IMG/VR virus record: IMGVR_UViG_3300047457_000824 | Location: 1 to 26,978 of that record | From: a virus | Length of the DNA stretch: 26,978 nucleotides | Direction: 5' to 3' (one strand) | Shown here: positions 10-19,236 of the stretch, in pieces | How positions within the stretch are numbered: the first letter of the stretch is position 1 | Layout of the letters: each line of letters opens with the position of its first letter | Notes under the pieces: model-generated | What the model was told of the DNA's origin: nothing | Database searches by the model: none | The model's input: only the letters and a program-made list of their open reading frames with translations | Made by a program: the position numbers and the translations under genes

Positions 10-19
10 AGATGGTATG

Positions 20-60
20 TTGCAAGGAAAGCCCCAATCTTGCAATATTATTGAAGGGGT
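20..60 (+). promoter_or_regulatory. Possible H-type RNA pseudoknot in the leader of the first gene
   Basis: TTGCAAG (20-26) pairs perfectly with CTTGCAA (39-45). The 12-base loop between them carries CCCC (32-35), which can pair with GGGG (56-59) downstream, giving a classical H-type pseudoknot. A competing nested fold pairs CAAT (35-38) with ATTG (50-53). The structure ends six bases before the GAAGG ribosome site of the gene at 81 and would begin about four bases after the inferred transcription start. T4 gene 32 mRNA has a leader pseudoknot used in autoregulation, so a regulatory role is plausible, but this is inference from base pairing alone. Confidence 0.4.
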
Positions 61-80
61 GTTTTGTGAAGGTATATTAT

Positions 81-377
81 ATGTCTAATGCTCTTAATTC
101 GTTTGTGACTTATCTTGCTGATGGCAACACTCTTACGAGCCGCCAGGTTCGTTCGATGTTCAAGGTCGACAATGCTGCCGATCTCGCCTATCGTGCTCGC
201 AATGAGGGTATCTCTGTATACACCAATCGCGTGACGAACAGCCGTGGTCAGAAGGTGTTTGCTTATCGCCTTGGCAATCCTTCGACTCAGTTCGAGAAGT
301 ATCTCGATCAGGGTCAGATTGCGCGTGCTCGCAAGACCCTTTACCGCGATGCAATCAGCGTCTCGATGACTGCCTAA
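81..377 (+). CDS. Small conserved phage protein, winged-helix-like
   Basis: A 98-aa protein of unknown function. The start at 81 is chosen because GAAGG lies upstream at a normal distance and the sequence beginning MSNALNSFVTYL looks like the start of a family of small T4-like phage proteins I recall. The segment LTSRQVRSMFKV (about residues 17-28), then a second helix (AADLAYRARNEG) and a likely beta wing (ISVYTNR...VFAYRLG), reads as a winged helix, suggesting DNA or RNA binding. It appears monocistronic: it has its own -10 box and a strong terminator hairpin after the stop. Codons are GC-ending more often than in the next gene, as in a highly expressed gene. Function is not assigned. An upstream in-frame start at 12 lacks a ribosome site. 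Confidence 0.75.
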   Translation: MSNALNSFVTYLADGNTLTSRQVRSMFKVDNAADLAYRARNEGISVYTNRVTNSRGQKVFAYRLGNPSTQFEKYLDQGQIARARKTLYRDAISVSMTA

Positions 378-494: not shown

Positions 495-1787
495 ATGACC
501 AAAGTAATTATTGCAAAAACTAAACTTGACTGTGAGCATTTGCTTGGTCAGTTCTTGAATGATTCTCATTTTGATAATGTAATCAATGAAGACACGGATT
601 GCTATTTTCAAAGCGAAGATGAAGGCAATATTGCATTCAAGTTTCGCAAAAACTACTTCAGCAAAGAACAACAAGATGCTGCATATGCAGGATTGCGTGA
701 AGCAGCAACACAAACTCAGAATCGTGGACTTGCTGCTGGACCGAAAGGTGAAAAATGTGGTGGTCGCGAATGGGTGACTGAATTCCAATTGCGTGCTATT
801 GACTATCTCAAGAAGCAAGCAGAGAATTCTGTCATTCAAGTCAATGTACAAGATGAAATTGATTTACTTCGTGCAAGATATGAAAGCGAGAATACATCAA
901 GAGGTCTTGTTTGGTTGAGTGCAAAAGTCAAAGAAGATGAATTTGATTTTGAAACTTGGTTGAAGAAAGTTGTAACACTTCCAATTCAAGAAAGAAAACA
1001 AGAAGCACAAGGAGTTGAAGAGACTTATATTTCTGATACAACTTATGCCAATGTTGTATTCTCTGGCATTGCTGGTTGGTTTGATCGTTATCCTCGCATT
1101 CCTTATGGTCGTGCAACAGCGTACACTCAGCACTCATACGATAAATTCAAACTTGCGTTTCCATTTTTACAAACATTGGATCGCGGTTTTGCAGAGTTAC
1201 TACCAACTCGTCATGCTGCGCAGCGTGAAGCAGCAGATAAAATCGATCCAGCGTTTCTGGTTCCAGAAACTGTGTTCACTACGATTACTGTGAACAAAAC
1301 ATTTAGAACAGCAGCACATCGTGATGCTGGTGACTTTACAAATGGCTTGAGCAATCTTCTTGTTCTATCTAATAATGGAAACTTCACAGGTGGATATCTA
1401 ATTCTACCTGAAGTTCGTATTGCTGTGAATGTGCGACCAGGTGACTTGTTATTAGTTAATAATCATGAGTACATTCACGGCAATACACCTATTGAAATGC
1501 AAGATGAAGTCGCAGAGCGCGTGAGTCTTGTTTGTTACTTGCGTGAGAAGATGCTCGAACTTGGAAGTAAAGAATATGAAGATCATCGATATAATTATGT
1601 TGAGTCACGTCGAAAGAACAAAGAACACAGACTCCAGCGACGTCTTTGGAACGGTATTTCCGAAGGAATGTGGGACGAACAAGAGTGGTATGACTACTTG
1701 GAAAAGAATGGTGGAAGAAAGATGGTCGAGAAGTATCATCCAAAAGCATATGAAAAAATTTCTACCCTAGAAGATTTGTTCGACTGA
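495..1787 (+). CDS. JBP/TET-family 2-oxoglutarate/Fe(II) dioxygenase, probable DNA thymine (or 5-methylcytosine) hydroxylase
   Basis: A 430-aa protein whose residues about 190-350 match the JBP/TET DNA-base dioxygenase pattern. They show TAYT (208-211), a VFTTITVN block (260-267), RTAAHRDAGD with iron ligands H275 and D277, GGYLILPE, and HEYIHGNTP with the distal ligand H328. R342 in ERVSLVCYLRE is the likely 2-oxoglutarate-binding arginine. This is the same motif order as kinetoplastid JBP, which hydroxylates thymine in DNA to 5-hydroxymethyluracil. The N-terminal 180 residues contain PKGEKCGGREWVTEFQLRAI and look phage-specific; the C-terminal 80 residues are charged. It is the first gene after a perfect promoter and heads a run of hypermodification genes, which favours thymine as substrate. 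5-methylcytosine remains possible. AGGAG precedes the start. Confidence 0.85.
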   Translation: MTKVIIAKTKLDCEHLLGQFLNDSHFDNVINEDTDCYFQSEDEGNIAFKFRKNYFSKEQQDAAYAGLREAATQTQNRGLAAGPKGEKCGGREWVTEFQLRAIDYLKKQAENSVIQVNVQDEIDLLRARYESENTSRGLVWLSAKVKEDEFDFETWLKKVVTLPIQERKQEAQGVEETYISDTTYANVVFSGIAGWFDRYPRIPYGRATAYTQHSYDKFKLAFPFLQTLDRGFAELLPTRHAAQREAADKIDPAFLVPETVFTTITVNKTFRTAAHRDAGDFTNGLSNLLVLSNNGNFTGGYLILPEVRIAVNVRPGDLLLVNNHEYIHGNTPIEMQDEVAERVSLVCYLREKMLELGSKEYEDHRYNYVESRRKNKEHRLQRRLWNGISEGMWDEQEWYDYLEKNGGRKMVEKYHPKAYEKISTLEDLFD

Positions 1788-1788
1788 T

Positions 1789-2478
1789 ATGTGTGCAGTA
1801 ATTGGTGCTTATATTGATAATCCTAGTTCTAAGGATTTGATCACTCTCACAAATGTCTTTCGTGAATCTAGTATTCGTGGGTTGCATGCAACTGGTGTGT
1901 CATGGGTTTATGGTAATGGAATCCATACGATGATTTCTGCAACTCCAGCAGGAAAGTTTATTGAAGCGCATCCACTAGAAAAGATGATCAATGAAGACGG
2001 CAATTTATATCTGATTGGTCATTGCCGCTATTCAACATCTGATCTCAACTACAATCAACCACTATGGGATGAGAGTCTTGCGATTGTTCACAATGGCGTT
2101 GTGAGCCAAGAGATGCCTGAGAAGTGGAAAGATCTTTACGGATATGATTGTAAGACTCGTAATGATTCTGAGTTGATTCTTCATACACTCAAAGCAAATA
2201 AATCTCCGCTTGTTGAGTTTGCTGATGCCTCAATGGCTGTTGTTGAACTATACAAAGAAAAGAAACTTCGTTTCTATCGCAATGGCAAACGACCAATATA
2301 CTTTACTTCTTTGTCAAATGGTGTTATAATTACTTCTACGAAAGACATTGCTGTGCGCTCTGATCTTCCAGGATCTGCTGAAGTGCCGATGAATCATTAT
2401 GTTACTGTAACAAAGGGTGTCTTTCATATGAAGATGGTACTGATTGATAATGCGAAGGATTTACAACATGTACGATAA
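1789..2478 (+). CDS. Class II glutamine amidotransferase (Ntn-hydrolase)
   Basis: A 229-aa protein starting Met-Cys, so that Cys2 becomes the N-terminal nucleophile as in GlmS/PurF-type amidotransferases. Supporting motifs are GLHATG (31-36), GHCRYST (77-83, with the glutamine-binding Arg80) and HNG (101-103). Such domains hydrolyse glutamine and pass ammonia to a partner synthetase. No synthetase domain is fused here; the natural partner is the amidoligase encoded next, whose start overlaps this stop by 11 bases. The start falls two bases after the dioxygenase stop, so translation is probably coupled. Stand-alone class II amidotransferases paired with amidoligases are a known phage arrangement. 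The substrate is not visible from sequence. Confidence 0.85.
   Translation: MCAVIGAYIDNPSSKDLITLTNVFRESSIRGLHATGVSWVYGNGIHTMISATPAGKFIEAHPLEKMINEDGNLYLIGHCRYSTSDLNYNQPLWDESLAIVHNGVVSQEMPEKWKDLYGYDCKTRNDSELILHTLKANKSPLVEFADASMAVVELYKEKKLRFYRNGKRPIYFTSLSNGVIITSTKDIAVRSDLPGSAEVPMNHYVTVTKGVFHMKMVLIDNAKDLQHVR
2302..2330 (+). promoter_or_regulatory. Weak candidate sigma70 promoter inside the amidotransferase gene
   Basis: TTTACT (2302-2307) and TATAAT (2325-2330) are spaced by 17 bases. The -10 is perfect but the -35 matches only four of six positions and the site lies inside coding sequence, so chance is a real alternative. It would drive the amidoligase gene. Confidence 0.22.
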
Positions 2479-3340
2479 AACTACATTTACATATGGTGCT
2501 GAGATTGAATGGGGTGATATTGATCGCCGCATGAGCATTCCTCCGACTCTCGGTAAATGGGAATATGCTGAGACTGATATTGTAAATCTTCGCCCACCAT
2601 TTGAGTTTCGTGCATGTGACCCACTCGGCAAAGAACCGTATATGGGTGGCGAAGTCAACATGATGCCAACAAAGACATGGCAGGAACAAGTTGATCGTAT
2701 AATGAAACTTTATGAGATGTTTTTGGAATATGGCAACCAGCCAACGGCTTCATGTGTCAATCATGGTCACATTCATGTCTTTGTTCCAGGATTGAAAGAA
2801 GATGTTGCTGGTCTCAAGCGACTTGTCGGATACATTCAAGACAATCAGGCAGATACTATTGAAGCCTGTTATCAATTTCATGAGACATCTGAAATGAAGC
2901 AGTGCGATGGTGCCAAGATGTATCTGAAGTTTGATGGTGGTCGACCGATGCCAGAGTATATGTGCGATAATATTATCGAACTGACTACTGACTTTGATCA
3001 CTTTATCAAACTACATGCTGCTGGCAAGGATGGTGTATCAATGGGTCGCCCATTTCGATACGCAATCAATACTTACTGCATGAAGCATACTGGCACAATT
3101 GAGTTCCGTTGCTTCCGCTCGACAACAAAGCGAGAAGAAATGGAATCTCAATTTAGATTCGTAGAAAACTTCATCGATGCAGCACTCAACGGCGGACCGT
3201 CTGTTCGTGAAATTCTTGCTGAAGGAAATTATAAATTCCCACCATTCAAATGGAATCTTGATGAATACTTCGGTTGGCAGCAAACCAAGTATCCGAAAGA
3301 GCGTGGTGAAAAGAAACGTGAGTTTCATGACGCTGCGTGA
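2468..3340 (+). CDS. Amidoligase (glutamine-synthetase-fold COOH-NH2 ligase)
   Basis: A 290-aa protein with the amidoligase signature: GAEIEW near the N-terminus (residues 10-15, metal-binding glutamates E12 and E14), GEVN (61-64), a histidine cluster NHGHIHV (98-104, H99/H101/H103) and TIEFRCFRST toward the C-terminus. The family (Pfam amidoligase enzyme type) forms amide or peptide bonds between a carboxylate and an amine using ATP. The start at 2468 has AAGGA eight bases upstream and overlaps the amidotransferase stop; the more upstream in-frame ATGs lack this. With the glutamine amidotransferase before it and a GNAT acetyltransferase after it, it forms a decoration module that could amidate the amino acid attached to a modified base. 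The actual substrate is inference. Confidence 0.8.
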   Translation: MYDKTTFTYGAEIEWGDIDRRMSIPPTLGKWEYAETDIVNLRPPFEFRACDPLGKEPYMGGEVNMMPTKTWQEQVDRIMKLYEMFLEYGNQPTASCVNHGHIHVFVPGLKEDVAGLKRLVGYIQDNQADTIEACYQFHETSEMKQCDGAKMYLKFDGGRPMPEYMCDNIIELTTDFDHFIKLHAAGKDGVSMGRPFRYAINTYCMKHTGTIEFRCFRSTTKREEMESQFRFVENFIDAALNGGPSVREILAEGNYKFPPFKWNLDEYFGWQQTKYPKERGEKKREFHDAA

Positions 3341-3848
3341 AACAAGTCGCGATGAATTTGTCGCGCATATCACTGAAAGCAAAGCAGATTCTTTTGCTAA
3401 AACTTTCGTAGCAAAAGCAGATATGCAGGATCAGTGGCAATATTGTATTGGATATTGGGAAGGGGCGGCGGAGCAGGAACTGGCTGGCGCGATCATCACA
3501 ACTCGCTCGAAGAAAACCCCATACATATTCAATCTTCAGTTACTACACACTTTTGCTAAACATCGTCGTAAAGGTATTGCAAGAATACTTACTCAAGATT
3601 CTCTTGATCGCGCGCAAGGTCTCGGCACCAGTTACTATCGTGTTTCAGCAGAGCCTGGAGCAGTTGCATTCTATGAAGCAATGGGCTTTCGATTCTTAGG
3701 AAAACAGAAAAGTGGATGCTCTCTGAGCATGTTCAAGATCAATGGTACGAATTTCGCTGATGGGCTTTATGATCTTTCGGATCCTGTGATATATAACGCA
3801 GTGAATAAAAAAGGAAAGGGTGGTTGTGTCGAAGTCTTTGCGCCGTGA
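3327..3848 (+). CDS. GNAT-family N-acetyltransferase
   Basis: A 173-aa protein with the GNAT core. The acetyl-CoA loop is KHRRKGIARIL (78-88, R/QxxGxA pattern), followed by a helix and the motif SAEPGAVAFYEAMGFRFLG, typical of the C-terminal half of the fold. The start at 3327 overlaps the amidoligase stop by 14 bases; the long in-frame extension upstream is only a shadow of the amidoligase gene. GNAT enzymes acylate primary amines. In this neighbourhood the likely acceptor is an amine on the hypermodified base or its precursor, since GNATs occur in other phage thymidine-hypermodification clusters, but a protein or metabolite target cannot be excluded. Confidence 0.85.
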   Translation: MTLRETSRDEFVAHITESKADSFAKTFVAKADMQDQWQYCIGYWEGAAEQELAGAIITTRSKKTPYIFNLQLLHTFAKHRRKGIARILTQDSLDRAQGLGTSYYRVSAEPGAVAFYEAMGFRFLGKQKSGCSLSMFKINGTNFADGLYDLSDPVIYNAVNKKGKGGCVEVFAP

Positions 3849-4839
3849 ACAATTTATTCGCTGGTATGCGTGGTCATTGAAATATAATGATTGCGATCCA
3901 GCAGTGTGGTGTACAAATTATTTGCACAAGCGATACGAACACAATGACGAAGAACGTCTATGGTTTGCGTGGTTGTATGGTAACACATATCAACTACCAA
4001 CTGCATGGGTTCTGAAGAATGAGTTCCCAGATTATGAACTCGCTACTGTGGATCGTATTCGCTGGTGGAATAGTCACAACTACAAGAGACTGAGATACCA
4101 AACAGATACAAAGTGGAACAAGGGTCATTTGCCAGCCATGTTCGAATCTTATCAAGAGTTTATTGGCAATAGAACACAACGAGAAGTTTTGGAGAATTAT
4201 TATGGCGACAATGAACAACAAACTTTCGACAACCTTTGGAATAATCTTAAAAACTCTCTTTACAAATTTGGTCGCTATTCCACTTGGTTTTATATGCAGC
4301 ATCTCGCTCATACTGCTGGCATTGACTGCATACCTACTTCTCTCATGCTTTCTGATTATTCTGGCTCTCGCTCACATCGTAATGGTTTGCATCTTGCCCT
4401 CGGCGAAGATGACAAGTACGATACAAGACTTACTGCTGGAGAATGCAATGACCTTGAAAGTGAAGCGAAAGACATACTTGAAGAAACAAGAGGAAGATTT
4501 CCTGAACTCAAATTACAGGTAGATTTCTTCACGATGGAAACTTGCCTTTGTTCGTTCAAGAAAATCTTTCGTGAACATCATGGGCGATATCTTGGTTACT
4601 ATCTCGATCGCCAGTCTGAAGAAATTCAGCAAGCAGAAAAGGATGGCTGGACTGGTATTGAGTGGAATGTATTGTGGCAATCAAGAGATGAAACTCTTGA
4701 CCCAAGACTTGCAATTCGTAATGCTACAATCAACAAAGAAAAGTTTACTTCTTATGTGAGAAGTGGTAGAATAGATCGTCTTGAGTGGATGTTTTCAGAT
4801 GAAACCTCAGTACAACAAGGACTAGAAGCACTATGGTAA
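3826..4839 (+). CDS. Thymine-hypermodification protein: probable amino acid:DNA transferase (aGPT-Pplase family) or HMUDK helical-domain relative
   Basis: A 337-aa, Trp/Tyr-rich, probably all-helical protein. The features I associate with the alpha-glutamyl/putrescinyl-thymine pyrophosphorylase (amino acid:DNA transferase) group and the related 5-hmdU-kinase helical domain are the N-terminal SLRREQFIRWYAWSL block, a central RYSTWFYMQHLAHTAGI, SRSHRNGLHL, and a C-terminal ETCLCSFKKIFREHHGRYLG followed by YYLDRQSEEI. That assignment rests on recalled family patterns plus the adjacent kinase gene and needs profile confirmation. The proposed reaction is displacement of pyrophosphate from 5-pyrophosphoryloxymethyl-dU in DNA by an amino acid. 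The start is GTG, either 3826 (AAAGGG five bases upstream) or 3820; both overlap the GNAT gene. The kinase start overlaps this stop by 7 bases. Confidence 0.6.
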   Translation: MSKSLRREQFIRWYAWSLKYNDCDPAVWCTNYLHKRYEHNDEERLWFAWLYGNTYQLPTAWVLKNEFPDYELATVDRIRWWNSHNYKRLRYQTDTKWNKGHLPAMFESYQEFIGNRTQREVLENYYGDNEQQTFDNLWNNLKNSLYKFGRYSTWFYMQHLAHTAGIDCIPTSLMLSDYSGSRSHRNGLHLALGEDDKYDTRLTAGECNDLESEAKDILEETRGRFPELKLQVDFFTMETCLCSFKKIFREHHGRYLGYYLDRQSEEIQQAEKDGWTGIEWNVLWQSRDETLDPRLAIRNATINKEKFTSYVRSGRIDRLEWMFSDETSVQQGLEALW

Positions 4840-5405
4840 GAGTGATTGCAATGGGTGGTGAGCCAGCAACTGGCAAGACTACGTTGATGTTTCGATTGAT
4901 TTCGATGGCTGATGACTGGCAAGTTGTCAAGCCACAGAAGTTACTTGATGCAATGTATTCCAAGAAACTGAATCTGTATATTCTTGGCAAGTATGCAAAC
5001 GACGGTAATGTGTTTCAAGGAACAGATCGTTTGAGTATGGCTGTTCAACCAGATGCAGAGAAATTCTTTTCTGAACTATGGTATGAAGAAGGTGCGAAAA
5101 CAAATGTCATCTTTGAAGGTGATCGCCTGTTCAATGGTAAACTACTAGACAAACTTTCAGAGTGGTTTCCAAACTCATTCAAGGTTCTTGTTCTTTCAGC
5201 ATCACATGATATCAAAGAACAGCGCCATGTTGATCGTAAAGACGACCAAGATGACAAATTCAAAAATTCTCGTGCGACGAAAATCTCGAATATAATGGGG
5301 TCGCTGACTCTCATGGACTATATAGAGACAATGGTCAACGAAAATCTCGATGATCAGTCTAAGATTATTGACAATATTAGAAAATTTTACAACTGGAGTG
5401 AATAA
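4833..5405 (+). CDS. P-loop kinase, probable 5-hydroxymethyl-dU DNA kinase
   Basis: A 190-aa P-loop protein with Walker A GEPATGKT (residues 9-16). It also has LGKYANDGNVFQGTDRLSMA in the first half and VIFEGDRLFN near the middle. The GTDRLSM block after a GKY motif is what I recall of 5-hmdU DNA kinases, which phosphorylate 5-hydroxymethyluracil in DNA as the activating step of thymidine hypermodification. It overlaps the preceding transferase gene by 7 bases, and that pairing is the strongest context support. It is distinct from the dNMP kinase at 6230, which has a different P-loop and length. A generic nucleotide kinase role is the main alternative. AAGGA lies about 11 bases before the ATG. 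Confidence 0.72.
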   Translation: MVRVIAMGGEPATGKTTLMFRLISMADDWQVVKPQKLLDAMYSKKLNLYILGKYANDGNVFQGTDRLSMAVQPDAEKFFSELWYEEGAKTNVIFEGDRLFNGKLLDKLSEWFPNSFKVLVLSASHDIKEQRHVDRKDDQDDKFKNSRATKISNIMGSLTLMDYIETMVNENLDDQSKIIDNIRKFYNWSE

Positions 5406-5407
5406 TT

Positions 5408-6223
5408 ATGCAGTTAGAAGTCTCTGTAGAAGAACTACGCAAAAATAAACTATTTGTTGCAACCCCAATGTATGGTGGCTCTGCGCATGGAATGTATCTA
5501 AAGTCTTGCCTTGATCTTCAATCTGTGTGTACACAGTACGGCATTGAAGTTCGTTTTTCTTTCATCTTCAATGAATCTCTTATTACTCGTGCACGCAATT
5601 ATCTCGTAGATGAGTTCCTCCGAGCAGAAGGATTTACGCATCTATTATTCTTAGATGCCGATATTCATTTTGATCCACGCGATGTAATTGCATTGCTTGC
5701 TATGAATAAGGATGTCATTGGTGGACCATATCCAAAGAAATCGATCAAGTGGGGTGCAATCAAGGAAGGCGTGAAGCGTCATCCTGAAATTACTCCTGCT
5801 GATATGGAAAAGTTGGCTGGTGATTTCGTCTTCAATCCAGTTCCAGGAACAGAAAAGTTCTCAGTTGCTGAGCCGATTGAAGTTCTTGAGATTGGCACAG
5901 GTTACATGATGGTCAAGCGTGAAGTTTTCGGCAAGTTTGCTGAAGCATATCCACAATTGAAGTATCGTCCAGATCACGTTGGTCAAGCCAACTTCGATGG
6001 TTCACGTTACATTCATGCTTACTTTGACACTGTTATTGATAGCGTTGCAAATGGCGGTCGTGGTTCAGACCGTTACTTGTCTGAAGACTATATGTTCTGC
6101 CAGTGGTGGAGAAATATCGGTGGTCAAATTTGGTTATGTCCTTGGATGAAGACGCATCATGTTGGAACCTATGCGTTCACTGGTGATATGCCAGCCGTTG
6201 CAAACTTCGTCGGATCTCTATAA
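5408..6223 (+). CDS. GT-A-fold glycosyltransferase
   Basis: A 271-aa protein with ATPMYGG (18-24), an RARNYLVDEFL helix (61-71) and the metal-binding DxD in LLFLDADIHFDP (D83, D85). Further on are PYPKKSIKWG and LSEDYMFCQWWRNIGGQIWL, a likely acceptor-side or catalytic acidic region. This family is common in T4-like phages. There is no signal or membrane segment. GGAG (5395-5398) nine bases upstream supports the start, two bases after the kinase stop. Its position at the end of the base-modification run makes a DNA-base glycosyltransferase acting on hydroxymethyl pyrimidine an attractive idea. Glycosylation of host or virion surface molecules is equally compatible with the sequence. Confidence 0.75.
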   Translation: MQLEVSVEELRKNKLFVATPMYGGSAHGMYLKSCLDLQSVCTQYGIEVRFSFIFNESLITRARNYLVDEFLRAEGFTHLLFLDADIHFDPRDVIALLAMNKDVIGGPYPKKSIKWGAIKEGVKRHPEITPADMEKLAGDFVFNPVPGTEKFSVAEPIEVLEIGTGYMMVKREVFGKFAEAYPQLKYRPDHVGQANFDGSRYIHAYFDTVIDSVANGGRGSDRYLSEDYMFCQWWRNIGGQIWLCPWMKTHHVGTYAFTGDMPAVANFVGSL

Positions 6224-6229
6224 TCATAT

Positions 6230-6901
6230 ATGATTGTCGGACTCGTTGGCTTTATCGGAGCAGGGAAAGGTACAGTTGCAGATCTCTTGGTCGAACGTCA
6301 TGATTTCTTCAAAGAGAGTTTTGCAAATAGTGTGAAGGATTCCTGCGCCGCAGTGTTTGGTTGGAATCGTGCCATGCTTGAGGGTGACACTCCAGAATCT
6401 CGAGCATGGCGCGAACAACCAGATGAGTGGTGGTCTAAAAAGTTTGGTCGTGAATTCTCACCCAGACTCGCATTACAATTGATGGGCACAGAGGCAGGAA
6501 GGGATGTTTTTCATCCTGACCTCTGGGTTCACACAGTCTTGCGTCGATGCGAACAGGCACCATGGAATAATTATGTTATTGCTGATGTGAGATTCCCAAA
6601 TGAAATCAAGGCTATTAGAGATTCTGGGGGACATGTTATTCGTGTTCGTCGTGGTCCTGATCCTGAGTGGTATGATTTGGCTCGAGAGTGCAATCTGGGG
6701 TATCACAATCTAGATGTGATGCGTAATGCATATTCAGAAGTCCATTATTCTGAATGGGCTTGGATTGGTTCTGACTATGATATTGTAATGGATAATAATT
6801 GTAGTTTGGATGAGTTGACCAGTAGGGTTGACAAAATAGTTGATTCGTTATATAATAATCGTGTTGAAGCAATTGAGGTCGTAAATTATGAAACTTTCTG
6901 A
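6230..6901 (+). CDS. 1: Deoxynucleoside monophosphate kinase (T4 gp1-like)
   Basis: A 223-aa P-loop kinase. GFIGAGKGT (7-15) is Walker A, SFANSVKDSCAAVFGW resembles the substrate-binding helix, LQLMGTEAGRDVFHPDLWV is highly characteristic of T4 gp1-type dNMP kinases, and VIADVRFPNEIKAIRDSGG is the Walker B/NMP region. The enzyme phosphorylates dGMP, dTMP and, in T4, hydroxymethyl-dCMP to diphosphates for the replisome-coupled dNTP pool. The start follows the glycosyltransferase stop by six bases and has only a weak ribosome site. The 3' end overlaps the clamp gene by 14 bases and contains that gene's consensus promoter. Confidence 0.88.
   Translation: MIVGLVGFIGAGKGTVADLLVERHDFFKESFANSVKDSCAAVFGWNRAMLEGDTPESRAWREQPDEWWSKKFGREFSPRLALQLMGTEAGRDVFHPDLWVHTVLRRCEQAPWNNYVIADVRFPNEIKAIRDSGGHVIRVRRGPDPEWYDLARECNLGYHNLDVMRNAYSEVHYSEWAWIGSDYDIVMDNNCSLDELTSRVDKIVDSLYNNRVEAIEVVNYETF
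6828..6856 (+). promoter_or_regulatory. Perfect-consensus sigma70 promoter for the sliding clamp gene
   Basis: TTGACA (6828-6833) and TATAAT (6851-6856) with an exact 17-base spacer lie inside the 3' end of the dNMP kinase gene. The inferred start, near 6863, leaves a short leader of about 25 bases to the clamp ATG at 6888, with GAGG at 6875-6878. This gives the replication genes an entry point independent of the modification operon. Confidence 0.78.
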
Positions 6902-9715: not shown

Positions 9716-10117
9716 ATGATTGAGAAATTGGTAGAAGTCACATTAGAAAAGCAAGACGACTTCCTCAAAGTCCGCGAGACGCTAACTCGTATCGGTGTTG
9801 CAGCAAAGAACGACAACATTCTTTATCAATCCTGCCATATCCTCCATAAACAAGGAAAGTATTATATCGTACACTTCAAAGAACTCTTTGAGTTGGACGG
9901 TAAGCCATCCAATATGTCTGACAATGACATTCAGCGTCGCAACACGATTGCGAATCTAATGGCTGAGTGGGGATTGGTCAAGTTGGTTGATGCAGACAAG
10001 ACAAAAGATAATGTTGCACCATTGAGCCAAATTAAGATTCTTCCGTTCAAGGATAAGAATGACTGGCAGTTGGTTTCCAAGTATACAATCGGGAAAAAGA
10101 AAAAGGATACTGTATGA
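9716..10117 (+). CDS. regA: RegA translational repressor
   Basis: A 133-aa protein (T4 RegA is 122) with the RegA pattern: a short N-terminal VEVTLEKQDDFLKVRETLTR, a central ILYQSCHILHKQGKYYIVHFKELF and a RRNTIANLMAEWGLVKLVD helix. RegA binds AU-rich sequences around start codons of early phage mRNAs and blocks translation, including its own and clamp-loader messages in T4. The start at 9716 is preferred over the TTG two codons earlier; AAAGGTGA lies upstream. The C-terminal GKKKKD tail is strongly basic. Position after gp62 matches T4 order. Confidence 0.9.
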   Translation: MIEKLVEVTLEKQDDFLKVRETLTRIGVAAKNDNILYQSCHILHKQGKYYIVHFKELFELDGKPSNMSDNDIQRRNTIANLMAEWGLVKLVDADKTKDNVAPLSQIKILPFKDKNDWQLVSKYTIGKKKKDTV

Positions 10118-10728
10118 TCTATTTGAGTGTGTATCGCCTTAATAATGATATAGAATTACCAACATACGGAACTACTTTAGCAAACTGTTTTGATTTATCA
10201 TTCCAACCAACAAGTAATGTTGTAACTGGATATGATTCATTCAACTCACCTATCGAACGACAAGTAAACTCGTTTGGAGAAATTTCAATTTATCCAGGAG
10301 ATCGTCTGTTGATTCCAACAGGCTTGATCTTTAAAATCGATCATCGCAAAACAATCGAAACATACTCAGATATATCACGTCCAGAATTACCATTACAGAA
10401 TCACAGCATTCGTTTGCATCCTCGCTCGGGTCTTTCGCTCAAGAAAGGTTTGATTCTAGCGAACTGCGAAGGTATTGTTGACGTTGATTATCAAGAAGAA
10501 GTGTTTGTGCTTTTGACAAACGTTTCCAAGATGCACGCAACAATTCGTAAAGGTGATCGTATTGCTCAAGGTGAGATTGCCTGCAACGAACCATTTCATA
10601 TTGCTGTATGCAATACACGTCCAACGAAACACTCTGAACGTGCTGGTGGATTTGGTTCAACTGGTGTTTCATCAGAAACTCCTCCGATGGAGGACTGGAA
10701 AGTCGATGGACCAACTAATTTTGGCTAA
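10114..10728 (+). CDS. dut: dUTPase (trimeric type), with an enlarged N-terminal region
   Basis: A 204-aa protein carrying dUTPase motifs: motif 1 as ANCFDL (23-28, usually AGxDL), motif 2 HPRSGLSLK (102-110), motif 3 ANCEGIVDVDYQEE (116-129, with the catalytic Asp), motif 4 RIAQ (149-152) and motif 5 ERAGGFGSTG (175-184). It hydrolyses dUTP to dUMP, preventing uracil incorporation and feeding dTMP synthesis. It is longer than the usual 140-160 aa: extra residues (about 29-56) follow motif 1 and a 20-aa tail follows motif 5. Motif 1 departs from consensus. The start overlaps the regA stop by 4 bases (ATGA). Confidence 0.85.
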   Translation: MIYLSVYRLNNDIELPTYGTTLANCFDLSFQPTSNVVTGYDSFNSPIERQVNSFGEISIYPGDRLLIPTGLIFKIDHRKTIETYSDISRPELPLQNHSIRLHPRSGLSLKKGLILANCEGIVDVDYQEEVFVLLTNVSKMHATIRKGDRIAQGEIACNEPFHIAVCNTRPTKHSERAGGFGSTGVSSETPPMEDWKVDGPTNFG

Positions 10729-11242: not shown

Positions 11243-11734
11243 ATGATTCGTGATGAACTATCGTGGGATGAATTGTTTATCTTACAGGCTACTCTGATCG
11301 CTCAGAAGAGCAAGGATCCGTCGACAAAGGTGGGGTGTGTAATCGTCAATGATGATAACGTCATCTTGTCGACTGGATTCAATGGCTTTCCTCGCGGCAT
11401 TGAAGAAGATTGGAAAGATCGTTGGAAGCGTCCAGAAAAGTACCACTGGGTTGAACATGCTGAACGCAACGCAATCTTCAATGCTGCTCGTGTTGGCGTT
11501 TCACTCAACAACTCACGCGCATATCTAAACTGGGAACCAAAGCCATGCGCTGATTGTACACGCGCATTGATTCAGGCTGGCATCAAGGAAGTCATTGGTC
11601 CGAATCGTCCATGGAAAGGAGTCGGTGCTGGGAAGCATTACTCGATCGACCACGCCGAAACCATGCTGCGTGAAGCAGGAGTCCGAATACGCTATTTCGA
11701 CCTGCCCCCAGAACTAGGGGAACCCCCATTCTAG
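11243..11734 (+). CDS. cd: dCMP deaminase
   Basis: A 163-aa zinc-dependent deaminase. STKVGCVIVNDD and STGFNGFPRG form the substrate-binding half. HAERNAIFNAA provides the zinc-binding His and catalytic Glu, and PKPCADCTRALIQAGI provides the two cysteine ligands (PCxxC). It converts dCMP to dUMP, the precursor of dTMP. Together with dUTPase upstream it channels nucleotides toward thymidylate, which suits a phage whose thymine may be hypermodified. Its start is 14 bases after the hsp20 stop with only a weak ribosome site. The final codons contain CCCCC/GGGG/CCCCC runs able to form small alternative hairpins. Confidence 0.92.
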   Translation: MIRDELSWDELFILQATLIAQKSKDPSTKVGCVIVNDDNVILSTGFNGFPRGIEEDWKDRWKRPEKYHWVEHAERNAIFNAARVGVSLNNSRAYLNWEPKPCADCTRALIQAGIKEVIGPNRPWKGVGAGKHYSIDHAETMLREAGVRIRYFDLPPELGEPPF

Positions 11735-15105: not shown

Positions 15106-15594
15106 ATGAAGATCTCTATCGGTAAATATCCGAAGAAAGGTGAACAGAAAAAGTCTATTCGCATTGATCCATGGGATACATGGAACATGGCGCATACTCT
15201 TGCTGACATCATTCATCCGATGCTCAGGCAGTTGCATCAAACCAATCATGGTGCACCATTTACCGATGACGAAGATGTGCCTGAGCATCTTCGTTCTACT
15301 GCAGCCAAGCCCAAGAAGAACGAATGGGATACTGACTCCAATCACTTCAAGCGTTGGGATTGGATCATGAAAGAAATGATCTGGGCGTTTGGTGAACTTG
15401 CTAAAGATCGCGATCCTGACTTCTTCATCAAGAAGCCAAAGTACAAGTGGGTCAAGAAAGAAGGCACAGATTTCTCTGAGATGGTAACTGTGCGCGAAGG
15501 CGTCTACGATACAGAAAAAGCCAAAGCATACTATGCTCGCAAAAAGAATGCCTTCCGTTTGTTTGGTAAATACTACGAAAATCTTTGGGACTAA
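15106..15594 (+). CDS. Conserved hypothetical phage protein
   Basis: A 162-aa protein with KISIGKYPKKG at the start and the block IRIDPWDTWNMAHTLADIIH, then PMLRQLHQTNHGAP, EDVPEHLR and FKRWDWIMKEMIWAFGELAK. I recall this DxWDTW...HTLA.II.PML.QL...HG.P pattern as a widely conserved hypothetical of T4-like and other marine phages. The His/Asp/Trp-rich core may be an enzyme, but no reaction is known. The C-terminus is basic and aromatic. Function not assigned. Confidence 0.8.
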   Translation: MKISIGKYPKKGEQKKSIRIDPWDTWNMAHTLADIIHPMLRQLHQTNHGAPFTDDEDVPEHLRSTAAKPKKNEWDTDSNHFKRWDWIMKEMIWAFGELAKDRDPDFFIKKPKYKWVKKEGTDFSEMVTVREGVYDTEKAKAYYARKKNAFRLFGKYYENLWD

Positions 15595-15596
15595 TT

Positions 15597-16382
15597 ATGC
15601 AACCAGAAGTAAAAATTCATACAACAGTAAATGGCACAAGATATGCATTATTCACTCAACCAGAAATCATCTCTGATGAGATTAGAAAGAACAACTACTG
15701 GAATGTCTATAATTTAGAGATTGCCGATATTGTTCTGAGTGAAGTATCAAATAAAAGAGTTGTCGATGTTGGTGCTGGACTTGGTGGATTTACAGTTCCA
15801 CTTGCAATCAAATACATCAAGAAACACATTTTTGATTCGTTTGAACCAGTACCAGCGATCAATACACAACTCAATGCAAATGCATTATTGAATCGTCTTC
15901 ATAATGTTCGATGTCATAGAATTGGTGTCTATGATAAGAATGAAGTTGTTGAGCATCCAATATTTGATTTGGCTTCAACCAATCATGGCGGATTCTCATT
16001 TTTAGTAGATAGTTATACAAATCGAAGCATTCCAATTCCAAATGAAATCGATGTATCAGAACTGAGAATGCTTGATGACTTTCGTTTCGGTCAAGTTGGT
16101 CTGATCAAGATCACAGTGTCAGGGGCAGAACTTGAGGTTCTGCGTGGTGCTGAAAAAACAATCAATCAAAACGAGCAACCTGCATTGATAGTAGAATGCT
16201 GGAATGATGATTGGTATAATGAGAGAAAAAATAGCATGCTTGAATTGATCAAGCAGTATGGATACAAACAAGTGCTTGTTCGAAGGGGGTATATATTTGC
16301 ATTCAATAATGTTGACTTATCAAAACGTGTTGAAGCAAGAATGAATGAACAAATCCCTGGAAGCAGAGTTGTCTTCAAGTGA
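15597..16382 (+). CDS. FkbM-family SAM-dependent methyltransferase
   Basis: A 261-aa protein with the SAM-binding loop VVDVGAGLGGFT (55-66), the post-II acidic FEPVP motif (82-86) typical of FkbM methyltransferases, and LIKITVSGAELEVLRGAEKT, the family's (D/K)-x-EG.E..VL.G region. Here ITVSGAE replaces the usual ID.EG.E. FkbM enzymes O-methylate sugars or other small molecules. The start at 15597 is just after the previous stop; the TTG extension is unnecessary. It heads a five-gene block with two glycosyltransferase-like proteins and two further methyltransferases, pointing to glycan synthesis or modification. The next gene overlaps by four bases (GTGA). Confidence 0.82.
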   Translation: MQPEVKIHTTVNGTRYALFTQPEIISDEIRKNNYWNVYNLEIADIVLSEVSNKRVVDVGAGLGGFTVPLAIKYIKKHIFDSFEPVPAINTQLNANALLNRLHNVRCHRIGVYDKNEVVEHPIFDLASTNHGGFSFLVDSYTNRSIPIPNEIDVSELRMLDDFRFGQVGLIKITVSGAELEVLRGAEKTINQNEQPALIVECWNDDWYNERKNSMLELIKQYGYKQVLVRRGYIFAFNNVDLSKRVEARMNEQIPGSRVVFK

Positions 16383-17131
16383 AAGTTTCTGTTATAACAC
16401 CAACCACAGGCAACCCATATCTTGCAGAATGCATCGCATCAGTAAGAGCGCAAACATATCAAAATATCGAGCACATTGTAGTTGTTGATGGTAAAGAACG
16501 TTGGAGTAAGGCAGACGAAATTTTATTGGCTGCAGAATTTCCAAATGGAGTGAATGAGCATGTTTGCATTCTACCCTATCCTACAGGCACTAATCGTTAC
16601 AACGGTCACCGTGTGTATGGTGCTGCTACTTATTTCGCAGATGGCGATTATCATATTTGGTTAGATGATGACAATGTTCTTGAGCCAAATCATGTTGAAA
16701 GTCTCGTAAAAATTGTTCAAGAAAAGAAACTCGATTGGGCTTTTTCGTTTAGAAAGATTATAGATAAAGATAGCAATGTAATCTGTTTAGATGATTGTGA
16801 GAGTCTTGGTTTATGGCACTCTATTCTCAGCCCACAAGATTTCTTTGTTGACGTCAATTGTTATTTTGTCAAGAAAGAAGTGGCAGTGGGCATGAGCCCA
16901 GTTTGGTATCGCAAATTTCGCGAGCCAGGTCAGATGGAAATCGATCGAGCCATTGCATCAATACTAATGGGAAAACAAAACAATCTAAAGTATGATTGCA
17001 CTCGCGACTACACAGTAAAATATCGAGTTGGTAATACAGGACTCTCCGTTCAGGGAGAGTTTTTCCTTCGTGGAAACCAAGCGATGTTGCAATTGCATAA
17101 TAACAAACTACCGTGGAAGAATCATGGCTAA
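16379..17131 (+). CDS. Family 2 glycosyltransferase
   Basis: A 250-aa GT-A enzyme. VSVITPTTGNPYLAECIASV followed by RAQTYQNIEHIVVVDG (residues 3-38) is the classic nucleotide-sugar-binding start of GT2 enzymes, and DGDYHIWLDDDNVLEP (88-103) holds the metal-binding acidic motif (D96-D98). It probably transfers a sugar to a lipid, protein or glycan acceptor. The start is GTG at 16379, overlapping the FkbM stop; no ATG fits the conserved N-terminus. It overlaps the following methyltransferase by 8 bases. Confidence 0.85.
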   Translation: MKVSVITPTTGNPYLAECIASVRAQTYQNIEHIVVVDGKERWSKADEILLAAEFPNGVNEHVCILPYPTGTNRYNGHRVYGAATYFADGDYHIWLDDDNVLEPNHVESLVKIVQEKKLDWAFSFRKIIDKDSNVICLDDCESLGLWHSILSPQDFFVDVNCYFVKKEVAVGMSPVWYRKFREPGQMEIDRAIASILMGKQNNLKYDCTRDYTVKYRVGNTGLSVQGEFFLRGNQAMLQLHNNKLPWKNHG

Positions 17132-17765
17132 AACAATAAGCGATAAGATACATGGAATTGGAACTGACATCTTCCAAGATCTAGATATTCTGGAGAAAGA
17201 TACTCAGGGATGGTCAAGTACAGGAGAGAGTTTCAACGAAGCAATCAAAAAACTCAAACCCAAAACAATCATTGAAGTGGGGACTTGGAAAGGTGCCTCT
17301 GCCATAAACATGGCAAAACTTACTTTGGCTGAGGGCGTGAGTGATGTTGAACTTGAGATTGTTTGTGTTGACACATTTCTCGGCTCATATGAACACTATT
17401 GCACTATGGGAACATTTGATCTTCTAGAAACTAGAAAAAATGGTCGCCCAAAAATCTATGATCAATTCTTATCAAACATTTTTCATGAGAAACTACAAGA
17501 TGTGATTACGCCATTTCCAGTCGACTCTGGTAATGGTGCTCTTGCTTTGAAGGATTGGAATGTAAAAGCCGATTTGATTTATATCGATGCTGCTCATGAC
17601 TATGAATATGTAAAGATCGATTTGTTTCGATATTCAGAAGTTTTGAGAGAAGGTGGATATATGATCATCGACGATTGGCATCATAACCCAATCAAGACTG
17701 CTGCAAAAGAAGTGTTTGGTGATAAGGTTGTAGATTTTCATGGGAAGGCTGTATGGATCAAGTAA
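17124..17765 (+). CDS. Class I SAM-dependent methyltransferase (Methyltransf_24 type)
   Basis: A 213-aa protein with IIEVGTWKGASAINMAKL (49-66) as the SAM-binding loop, VCVDTFLGSYEHY as the post-II motif, and DLIYIDAAHDYEYVKIDLFR, the Asp-containing block characteristic of Methyltransf_24/CmcI-like enzymes, followed by GGYMIIDDW. The acceptor is unknown; linkage to glycosyltransferases suggests a sugar or polysaccharide. The start at 17124 is preceded by GGAAG and overlaps the glycosyltransferase stop. The longer reading frame upstream is a shadow. It overlaps its paralogue-like neighbour by 13 bases. Confidence 0.82.
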   Translation: MAKTISDKIHGIGTDIFQDLDILEKDTQGWSSTGESFNEAIKKLKPKTIIEVGTWKGASAINMAKLTLAEGVSDVELEIVCVDTFLGSYEHYCTMGTFDLLETRKNGRPKIYDQFLSNIFHEKLQDVITPFPVDSGNGALALKDWNVKADLIYIDAAHDYEYVKIDLFRYSEVLREGGYMIIDDWHHNPIKTAAKEVFGDKVVDFHGKAVWIK

Positions 17766-18544
17766 AAAAATATGTTGAGAGAGTCGAGTCTGCTCTCAAA
17801 TGCGCTAATGATAATCAGACAAAGTTGACAGAAAAGCAACTCAGTGAAGTCAAAGGATTATCTGGAAAGAAGATTAGAATTCTTCTAAATGAACTTGTGA
17901 AAGATGATACCAACTATCTAGAGGTTGGCACATTTACAGGCTCTACATTTATCAATGCAATGTATGGTAACAAACCGACATCTGCATTTGTCGTCGATTC
18001 ATTCTCGGCAAAAGATAGTTGGGAAATGGATATGAAAGTTGACGTTGAGTATTCTGGAATCAACGTCAAGAATGGATTATTTCTATATTTTCTAGACAAC
18101 TGCGAAGATAATGGCATCACAAACTTTACCTGCATACAAGGCGACTGTTTCGATCTTCTTCCGCCAGACAAGTTCGACATTCGTGATATCAACACGTATC
18201 TGTTCGATGCAGGACATACAAAAGAAGATCACACTCAAGCAATCACATACTATGTGAATTCTTTATCAGATGTATTCATTTATATTGTCGATGATTGGAA
18301 TACAGAAGCGGTCCGCGAAGGAACTCGATTGGGATTTGAATCGGCATATGTCAAAGTTCATAAAGAATGGGAAATATTCGGCAACACTCAAAAAGTAAAT
18401 GATGAAATTCACTATGATCCAGATTGGTGGAATGGCTATTATATTGCTGTCTGCGAAAAGCCATATGGATTTGTATATCCTGAAGAAGAAATTGATATCA
18501 AGCCTTTGTGGATGACAATTTCAGGAACTATTGGAGAAACATAA
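17753..18544 (+). CDS. Second class I SAM-dependent methyltransferase (Methyltransf_24-like)
   Basis: A 263-aa protein with YLEVGTFTGSTFINAMYG (55-72) as the SAM loop, FVVDSFSAKDSW as the second acidic motif, and TYLFDAGHTKEDHTQAITYY corresponding to the DAAHDY block of the preceding enzyme, then IYIVDDWN. The shared plan suggests distant relatedness between the two adjacent methyltransferases. A 45-residue N-terminal helix region precedes the fold and an extra tail follows. The acceptor is unknown. Its stop shares one base with the next ATG (TAATG). Confidence 0.78.
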   Translation: MDQVKKYVERVESALKCANDNQTKLTEKQLSEVKGLSGKKIRILLNELVKDDTNYLEVGTFTGSTFINAMYGNKPTSAFVVDSFSAKDSWEMDMKVDVEYSGINVKNGLFLYFLDNCEDNGITNFTCIQGDCFDLLPPDKFDIRDINTYLFDAGHTKEDHTQAITYYVNSLSDVFIYIVDDWNTEAVREGTRLGFESAYVKVHKEWEIFGNTQKVNDEIHYDPDWWNGYYIAVCEKPYGFVYPEEEIDIKPLWMTISGTIGET

Positions 18545-19236
18545 TGAACCCATGTATCGCATCTATATTCATGAACAATATTGATCAAAAACTTGTTGCT
18601 CTACAGAAACAAGTTGTTGAGAAATATAATGTATCAAAGATTCCACACTATCATGTATACACAGAGGCACCTCCTGGCTATACAATGGATAAACTTGTTG
18701 ATATGCTCGAACAAAAAGGGCATGATGCAATTATGTTCTTGGACATTGATTGTTTGCCTCTGGAAAATAATGCACTCAATTACTTTTTCGAAAGAGCATA
18801 TATGGGGAAGGTGATTGGCTCTGCACAACGAAGCAATCATATACAAAATGATCAACATGTTTTCTGCGCACCTCATAACGTAACATTCACTGTTGAGATG
18901 TATCGTAAACTTGGTAATCCGTCGTTTATGCCAAACTATCGTGGTGATGTTGCAGAAGAATTGACTTTTAGAGCCAGAGAGAGTAATATACCTATTGAGA
19001 TCTTGATGCCGTTGCATTATGATGCACCGCCAATTCGTATGGATTGGGAACCAAAAGATGCACCGCCATATTGGGATCTTGCTGATGGCATGCCGAAGTA
19101 TGGTATCGGTACAACGTTTGGTCTTACAAACGGAGATGGTACAACAATGGATTTGTTCTGGCATATGTACCAAAGTTTTCATCCAGGGCAAAATGAAAGA
19201 TTTACAAAGAAGTGTGAGGAATTACTCAATGGCTAA
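18544..19236 (+). CDS. Putative glycosyltransferase-like protein with a DxD motif
   Basis: A 230-aa protein. DAIMFLDIDCLPL (61-73) contains the D67-x-D69 motif after a hydrophobic strand, as in GT-A glycosyltransferases, and the region before it (KIPHYHVYTEAPPGYTMDKL) lacks a typical N-terminal P-x-(Y/F) sugar-binding start. The remainder (GDVAEELTFRARE and the His/Trp-rich C-terminus) could hold the acceptor site. It may glycosylate the same substrate as the GT2 enzyme at 16379. Family assignment is less certain than for that enzyme. The start shares a base with the previous stop. Confidence 0.6.
   Translation: MNPCIASIFMNNIDQKLVALQKQVVEKYNVSKIPHYHVYTEAPPGYTMDKLVDMLEQKGHDAIMFLDIDCLPLENNALNYFFERAYMGKVIGSAQRSNHIQNDQHVFCAPHNVTFTVEMYRKLGNPSFMPNYRGDVAEELTFRARESNIPIEILMPLHYDAPPIRMDWEPKDAPPYWDLADGMPKYGIGTTFGLTNGDGTTMDLFWHMYQSFHPGQNERFTKKCEELLNG

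Follow-up and report, generated by a model that had tools for sequence, protein, structure and literature searches.

Can a TET/JBP-family dioxygenase take the place of the dUMP hydroxymethylase in a phage? The locus described here raises this question. It belongs to a 26,978-base stretch of viral DNA from IMG/VR, a fragment that was analysed in full and is called the window below; the virus is T4-like, and its replication genes are of T4 type. The initial annotation proposed exactly such a replacement, with the dioxygenase probably acting on DNA, and both the operon structure and the reciprocal distribution of the two enzymes in related phages support it. We consider it likely that the TET/JBP enzyme hydroxylates thymine in phage DNA to 5-hydroxymethyluracil (5hmU), which is then tailored, and so replaces the dUMP hydroxymethylase of ViI, M6 and SPO1. 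As the window is an incomplete genome, whose own gene absences prove little, the argument from an absent hydroxymethylase is carried by its relatives. The features under discussion are collected in Table 1.

Table 1. Position, strand and supporting matches of the window features considered in this work
Feature	Position	Strand	Basis
Small conserved ORF	12..377	+	Likely real start about 81 (MSNALNSF...); tblastn in loci; weak phrog_4973 match, 8.5e-05
TET/JBP-family Fe(II)/2-oxoglutarate dioxygenase, predicted DNA thymine hydroxylase	495..1787	+	430 codons; Pfam Tet_JBP, AlphaFold2, fold matches
Class II glutamine amidotransferase (Cys2), tailoring gene	1789..2478	+	GATase_6, 9.2e-12
Amidoligase (COOH-NH2 ligase, glutamine-synthetase-like), tailoring gene	2462..3340	+	Amidoligase_2
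GNAT acetyltransferase, tailoring gene	3327..3848	+	Acetyltransf_10, 1.5e-12
ADDT (amino acid:DNA transferase), GTG start	3820..4839	+	PF18724, 2e-19
P-loop kinase, predicted 5-hydroxymethyl-dU DNA kinase	4833..5405	+	phrog_800, 4.5e-11
Anp1-like glycosyltransferase	5408..6223	+	Anp1, 2.2e-04; phrog_1574, 6e-60
dNMP kinase	6230-6901
dUTPase	10114-10728
dCMP deaminase	11243-11734

The ORF does encode a TET/JBP dioxygenase: its match to Pfam Tet_JBP has an E-value of 9.5e-24 and scores 83.9 bits, where the cut-off is 34.9, and this match is not due to chance, because all 67 diverse relatives that were compared match the same model; phrog_24024, a family without assigned function, is matched across the whole length of the protein, and weak TauD and CsiD matches also occur. 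The iron ligands H275, D277 and H328 are invariant in the 67 sequences and R342, the 2-oxoglutarate arginine, is nearly so, and in the window enzyme they align with HRD and H..R of TET2. Every motif quoted by the initial annotation (GGREWVTEFQ, TAYT, VFTTITVN, HRDAGDF..GLS, HGNTP and R..SLVCYLRE) is present in the translation. The enzyme has 540 or more relatives in IMG/VR, and the named ones are Stenotrophomonas phage DLP6 (49%), Caulobacter phage Cr30 and phage C48C1 (45%), Synechococcus phage S-CBWM1 (29%) and Pelagibacter phage HTVC112P; contigs from bacterial and archaeal genomes, scanned once, yielded none. Several GenBank records call the protein 'SNF2 DNA repair protein', a name that no domain match backs. 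Where the IMG/VR relatives extend far enough upstream, the small ORF is nearly always conserved in front of the dioxygenase.

An AlphaFold2 model built from the 67 aligned relatives (mean pLDDT 93.9, pTM 0.87) shows a double-stranded beta-helix and has TET2 as its closest fold (Z 20.1, rmsd 3.5, 253 residues), followed by CMD1 (Z 19.4), NgTET1 (18.9) and CcTet (18.3); Z to these four ranges from 17.9 to 20.1, and the next fold group, AlkB/FTO, reaches at most 13.8. A Foldseek search run on the same model also gave TET2, CMD1 and NgTET1 as best folds, the match to these three spans residues 1-370, and in a sequence profile search TET2 was the best solved relative (2.5e-05). The earlier description of the protein as JBP-like, with TET and JBP1 named as structures to compare, holds for the catalytic domain only: neither the J-DNA-binding domain of JBP1 nor the SNF2 domain of JBP2 appears among its Pfam matches up to E 10, and TET2, CMD1 and NgTET1 rank first by fold. 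The N-terminal 180 residues had also been suggested as a possible source of DNA binding or site choice. Because the TET2 match begins at residue 1, with the early strands 3-7, 28-38 and 46-51 inside the matched range, the N-terminus is a part of the dioxygenase rather than an added domain, and a separate module of this kind is unsupported; a helical stretch at about 80-180 is without clear counterpart in TET2. The active-site residues do not settle the choice between thymine and 5-methylcytosine (5mC); D280, at H+5, presumably matches NgTET1.

Directly behind the dioxygenase stop (1787) the amidotransferase gene begins at 1789, as it adjoins the dioxygenase in other ADDT-type loci, and overlapping genes for the amidoligase, the GNAT protein, ADDT and the P-loop kinase continue to 5405. 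The initial annotation passed over this whole operon (1789-5405), having named the dCMP deaminase, dUTPase and dNMP kinase, all three of which we confirmed and located. The Amidoligase_2 match of the window copy is weak (0.03), and 13 of 16 relatives match the model, the best at 2.6e-08; the GNAT reading frame is open from 3177, with an ATG at 3327 that gives a 14 nt overlap with the end of the amidoligase gene. PF18724 is matched by 20 of the 23 members of the window ADDT family, which is found also in the 5hmdU phages ViI and M6, where ADDT co-occurs with a dUMP hydroxymethylase and without TET/JBP. As to the kinase, phrog_800 is common to the window protein and to the 5hmdU DNA kinase of M6, gp54 (2e-39). 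M6 gp54 matches the 5hmdU DNA kinase model HMUDK, whereas 28 of 30 members of the window kinase family match Ploopntkinase3 instead, the window copy itself scoring below the Pfam cut-off. BLAST of the window kinase and ADDT against M6 gp54 and gp55 gave no significant match; gp55 is the kinase helical domain, and the ADDT of M6 is located elsewhere in its genome. This operon with ADDT and kinase is the best evidence for the suggested replacement of the hydroxymethylase. Further downstream (15585-19236) the window encodes an FkbM-like methyltransferase together with two more methyltransferase-like ORFs and a pair of glycosyltransferase-like genes, a cluster that may make a surface or virion glycan.

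The distribution of the hydroxymethylase was followed with PF00303, the thymidylate synthase/hydroxymethylase model, which detected all positive controls (SPO1 77.6, M6 66.3, T4 gp42 58.3 and ViI 54.0 bits). It has no match in the 26,978 bases of the window, in agreement with the initial annotation, and ThyX is not found there either. A dUMP hydroxymethylase elsewhere, which according to that annotation would refute replacement, was sought in relatives, both complete genomes and large contigs, and none was found: PF00303 has no match in DLP6, C48C1, S-CBWM1 or HTVC112P, in 45 related contigs, including one of 172,991 bases with dioxygenase, ADDT and kinase, or in 28 further contigs of 30-150 kb, which makes 73 related virus contigs in total, of up to 197 kb, the IMG/VR contigs being fragments. 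The PF00303 protein of Cr30 scores 372.9 bits, similar to T4 thymidylate synthase, against 54-78 for known hydroxymethylases, and phmmer seeded with the M6 hydroxymethylase gave 117 bits for SPO1, 110 for ViI, 33 for Cr30 and 22 for T4 td; judged by these scores, it is a canonical thymidylate synthase. A dedicated HMM, which we built from nine hydroxymethylase-type proteins, found nothing in the window, in the TET/JBP carrier loci or in the whole Zemanar genome, and among the loci searched it matched only M6 itself and T4 td. In each of six further ADDT phages a hydroxymethylase-type gene is present and TET/JBP is not; ViI, SPO1, M6 and T4 likewise have no TET/JBP. Among the phages examined, the absence of TET/JBP and of the dUMP hydroxymethylase is thus reciprocal. 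A hydroxymethylase of ThyX type has been hypothesised for SP-15 (PMC5977210), and ThyX is present in S-CBWM1, DLP6 and two large contigs. It cannot be a general answer, because C48C1, Cr30 and the 172,991-base contig are without it, and we rejected it as a hidden hydroxymethyl source.

What varies among the loci is the set of genes that separates the dioxygenase from an Anp1-like glycosyltransferase, itself constant. The latter closes the variable cassette and is found in most IMG/VR loci; it occurs also in Sinorhizobium phages without a dioxygenase match and was rejected as a dedicated partner. Among 88 non-identical TET/JBP loci with at least 4 kb downstream, on contigs of unequal length, ADDT without a cassette glycosyltransferase was found in 52 and a GT4 or TAGT glycosyltransferase without ADDT in 29, while both were found in one (Cr30, with a TAGT-like gene) and neither in six; the exclusion has a Fisher p of 3e-16, with relatedness ignored. 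Leaving out the loci fetched by the ADDT query (49, 29, 1 and 6) does not change the pattern, and the kinase accompanies ADDT in 51 of 53 loci. On the FastTree tree of the dioxygenase, some branches of which are long, about 15 switches between ADDT and glycosyltransferase are required; of 14 independent pairs that differ in ADDT, about 11 differ in the glycosyltransferase in the opposite sense and none in the same sense (median p 0.001). The hydroxylase stays and the tailoring genes are exchanged, as would be expected if two tailoring routes drew on a single common product.

A few cassettes have additional features. Some carry, between GNAT and ADDT, an extra protein of about 450-490 aa (L127:5181-6551, L099:2369-3835), one type of which has a ParB-like region (phrog_1033); ParB-like genes stand beside the dioxygenase in HTVC112P and Zemanar as well, and a ParB-like protein is a possible targeting factor. 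In phage C48C1 (L004:11353-13385) and in locus L272 the dioxygenase is followed by a 344 aa protein and then by UDP-galactopyranose mutase, which suggests a third cassette type with galactofuranose tailoring. An alternative cassette (L071:11296-12081) begins with a protein of 261 aa instead of the amidotransferase and GNAT, and this protein is without any Pfam or PHROG match.

It could be argued that the enzyme is a TET in the strict sense, which oxidises 5mC made by the host or by an unrecognised methylase, and that the neighbours tailor the resulting 5hmC. The closest solved structures are indeed 5mC oxidases, and Burke et al. in 2021 reportedly described a phage TET acting on 5mC. Some relatives pair the dioxygenase with TAGT, a family found in hmC-glucosylating T6-type phages (PMC13390438). 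However, a search for C5-cytosine methylase (PF00145) found none in 13 carrier records, 5 of them complete phage genomes, and 5mC is a less likely substrate for that reason; moreover, the commonest partners are ADDT and the kinase, characterised relatives of which act on 5hmdU, and the same pairing recurs in Zemanar and Tonitrus (PMC11955845), so that we regard oxidation of 5mC as unlikely here.

The dNMP kinase next to the cassette could serve hydroxymethyl-dUMP, as would be expected if free dTMP or dTTP were hydroxylated and 5hmdUTP entered DNA, replacing T wholesale. A dNMP kinase of that family was, however, not detected in Cr30, DLP6, C48C1, HTVC112P or Zemanar, and as a required partner it was rejected; because several carriers lack it, and because the fold is over residues 1-370 that of the DNA-acting TET2, CMD1 and NgTET1, hydroxylation at the nucleotide level seems to us very improbable. 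The initial annotation expected sequence-selective oxidation in DNA to leave a patchy modification. This expectation is unsupported; the final hypermodification of ViI, M6 and phiW-14 is partial too and biased to TG/TC (PMC6449724), so that patchiness would not separate the two routes. The diversity of 2-oxoglutarate dioxygenases and the TauD and CsiD matches might even suggest RNA, a protein or the glycan of the glycosyltransferase genes at 15.6-19.2 kb as the substrate, but with a full Tet_JBP match, a TET fold at Z 18-20 against at most 13.8 for AlkB/FTO, and linkage to ADDT/kinase or a glycosyltransferase in 82 of 88 loci, we find this scarcely credible.

Returning to thymine hydroxylation in DNA, we infer a pathway with its substrate, its action on the polymerised molecule, order of steps, choice of sites, final base and anti-restriction role as follows. 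The dioxygenase would hydroxylate the thymine methyl group in polymerised phage DNA to 5hmU, the P-loop kinase would phosphorylate the hydroxymethyl group and ADDT would displace the phosphate with an amino acid, after which the acetyltransferase, amidotransferase and amidoligase may tailor the side chain by acetylation and amide formation, and the resulting hypermodified base may block host nucleases. Sister phages would instead pass the product of this hydroxylase to a glycosyltransferase, leading to base-J-like glycosylated 5hmU. T4 beta-glucosyltransferase can glucosylate 5hmU in DNA (PMC4111573), and glycosyl tailoring of 5hmU is therefore chemically plausible. We may go further and suggest, with chances that appear to us evenly balanced, that a large T4-like phage group has a fixed post-synthesis TET/JBP and uses 5hmU as the common handle for exchangeable cassettes, and that the amidotransferase-amidoligase product is an undescribed thymine derivative. 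The cassettes exchanged would then, in this equally balanced suggestion, be of two kinds: one of kinase and ADDT, to which amidotransferase, amidoligase and acetyltransferase belong as well, and one of just a single glycosyltransferase that would make a base-J-like nucleotide.

Related phage TET/JBP systems were predicted earlier, and the window system is a variation on those; Iyer et al. in 2013 are said to have predicted phage systems that build on the products of TET/JBP enzymes. The literature already separates, for phages, hydroxylation of nucleotides from hydroxylation in situ by TET/JBP (PMC7824862). As far as we found, the reciprocal distribution with the dUMP hydroxymethylase, the exchange of cassettes next to a hydroxylase that stays the same, and the amidotransferase-amidoligase-GNAT-ADDT-kinase set are new, and we found no report in the literature of a phage TET/JBP shown to act on thymine. 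If true, such an activity might explain how 5hmU is supplied to 5hmU-dependent enzymes in phages without a dUMP hydroxymethylase, and the enzyme would be useful in the laboratory for introducing 5hmU or base J into DNA. Exchanging the tailoring genes while keeping the hydroxylase shows a way in which phages may alter the coating of their DNA to withstand host nucleases. The cultured phages Cr30, DLP6 and Zemanar carry the dioxygenase gene, and 18 restriction enzymes have been run on DLP6 (PMC5349666).

Among known systems, 5mC-acting TET2, NgTET1 and CMD1 share the fold and the Fe/2-oxoglutarate ligands of the window enzyme, and phage TETs sit, as it does, beside tailoring genes; unlike in 5mC systems, no C5-cytosine methylase occurs in the carriers examined, and their partners belong to thymine-modification families. 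Kinetoplastid JBP1/JBP2 have the same catalytic domain, proposed to convert T to 5hmU in DNA on the way to base J, a route that those window relatives with a glycosyltransferase after TET/JBP resemble, whereas the window enzyme is viral, comes with amino-acid tailoring and has no JBP1 DNA-binding or SNF2 domain. In M6, ViI and phiW-14 the accepted pathway leads from 5hmdU in DNA through phosphorylation by the 5hmdU DNA kinase to amine transfer (PMC6449724), with hydroxymethyl-dUMP made from dUMP in phiW-14 (PMC5977210); this pathway shares with the window an ADDT and, as predicted for the window, a P-loop gene of 5hmdU kinase type acting on the uracil 5-hydroxymethyl in DNA, but takes the hydroxymethyl from a nucleotide-level dUMP hydroxymethylase, the gene that is missing in the window, where TET/JBP stands instead. 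Mycobacterium phage Zemanar, an unrelated siphophage, has a ParB-annotated gene, Tet_JBP (26.1 bits, below the cut-off), ADDT (36.6) and Ploopntkinase3 (239.1) side by side at its genome start. The annotations of its gp2-gp4 (L289:785-3465) read queuine tRNA-ribosyltransferase, hypothetical protein and terminase small subunit, and the last of these names is also that of phrog_800, a family with DNA-base kinases. For Rhodococcus phage Tonitrus a 2025 paper describes a ParB/TET-JBP/aGPT-Pplase2/5hmU-kinase set and regards it as a putative thymidine hypermodification system (PMC11955845). This actinophage module has the same enzyme set as the window but is without the amidotransferase-amidoligase extension and the T4-like setting, and the TET/JBP of Zemanar is shorter.
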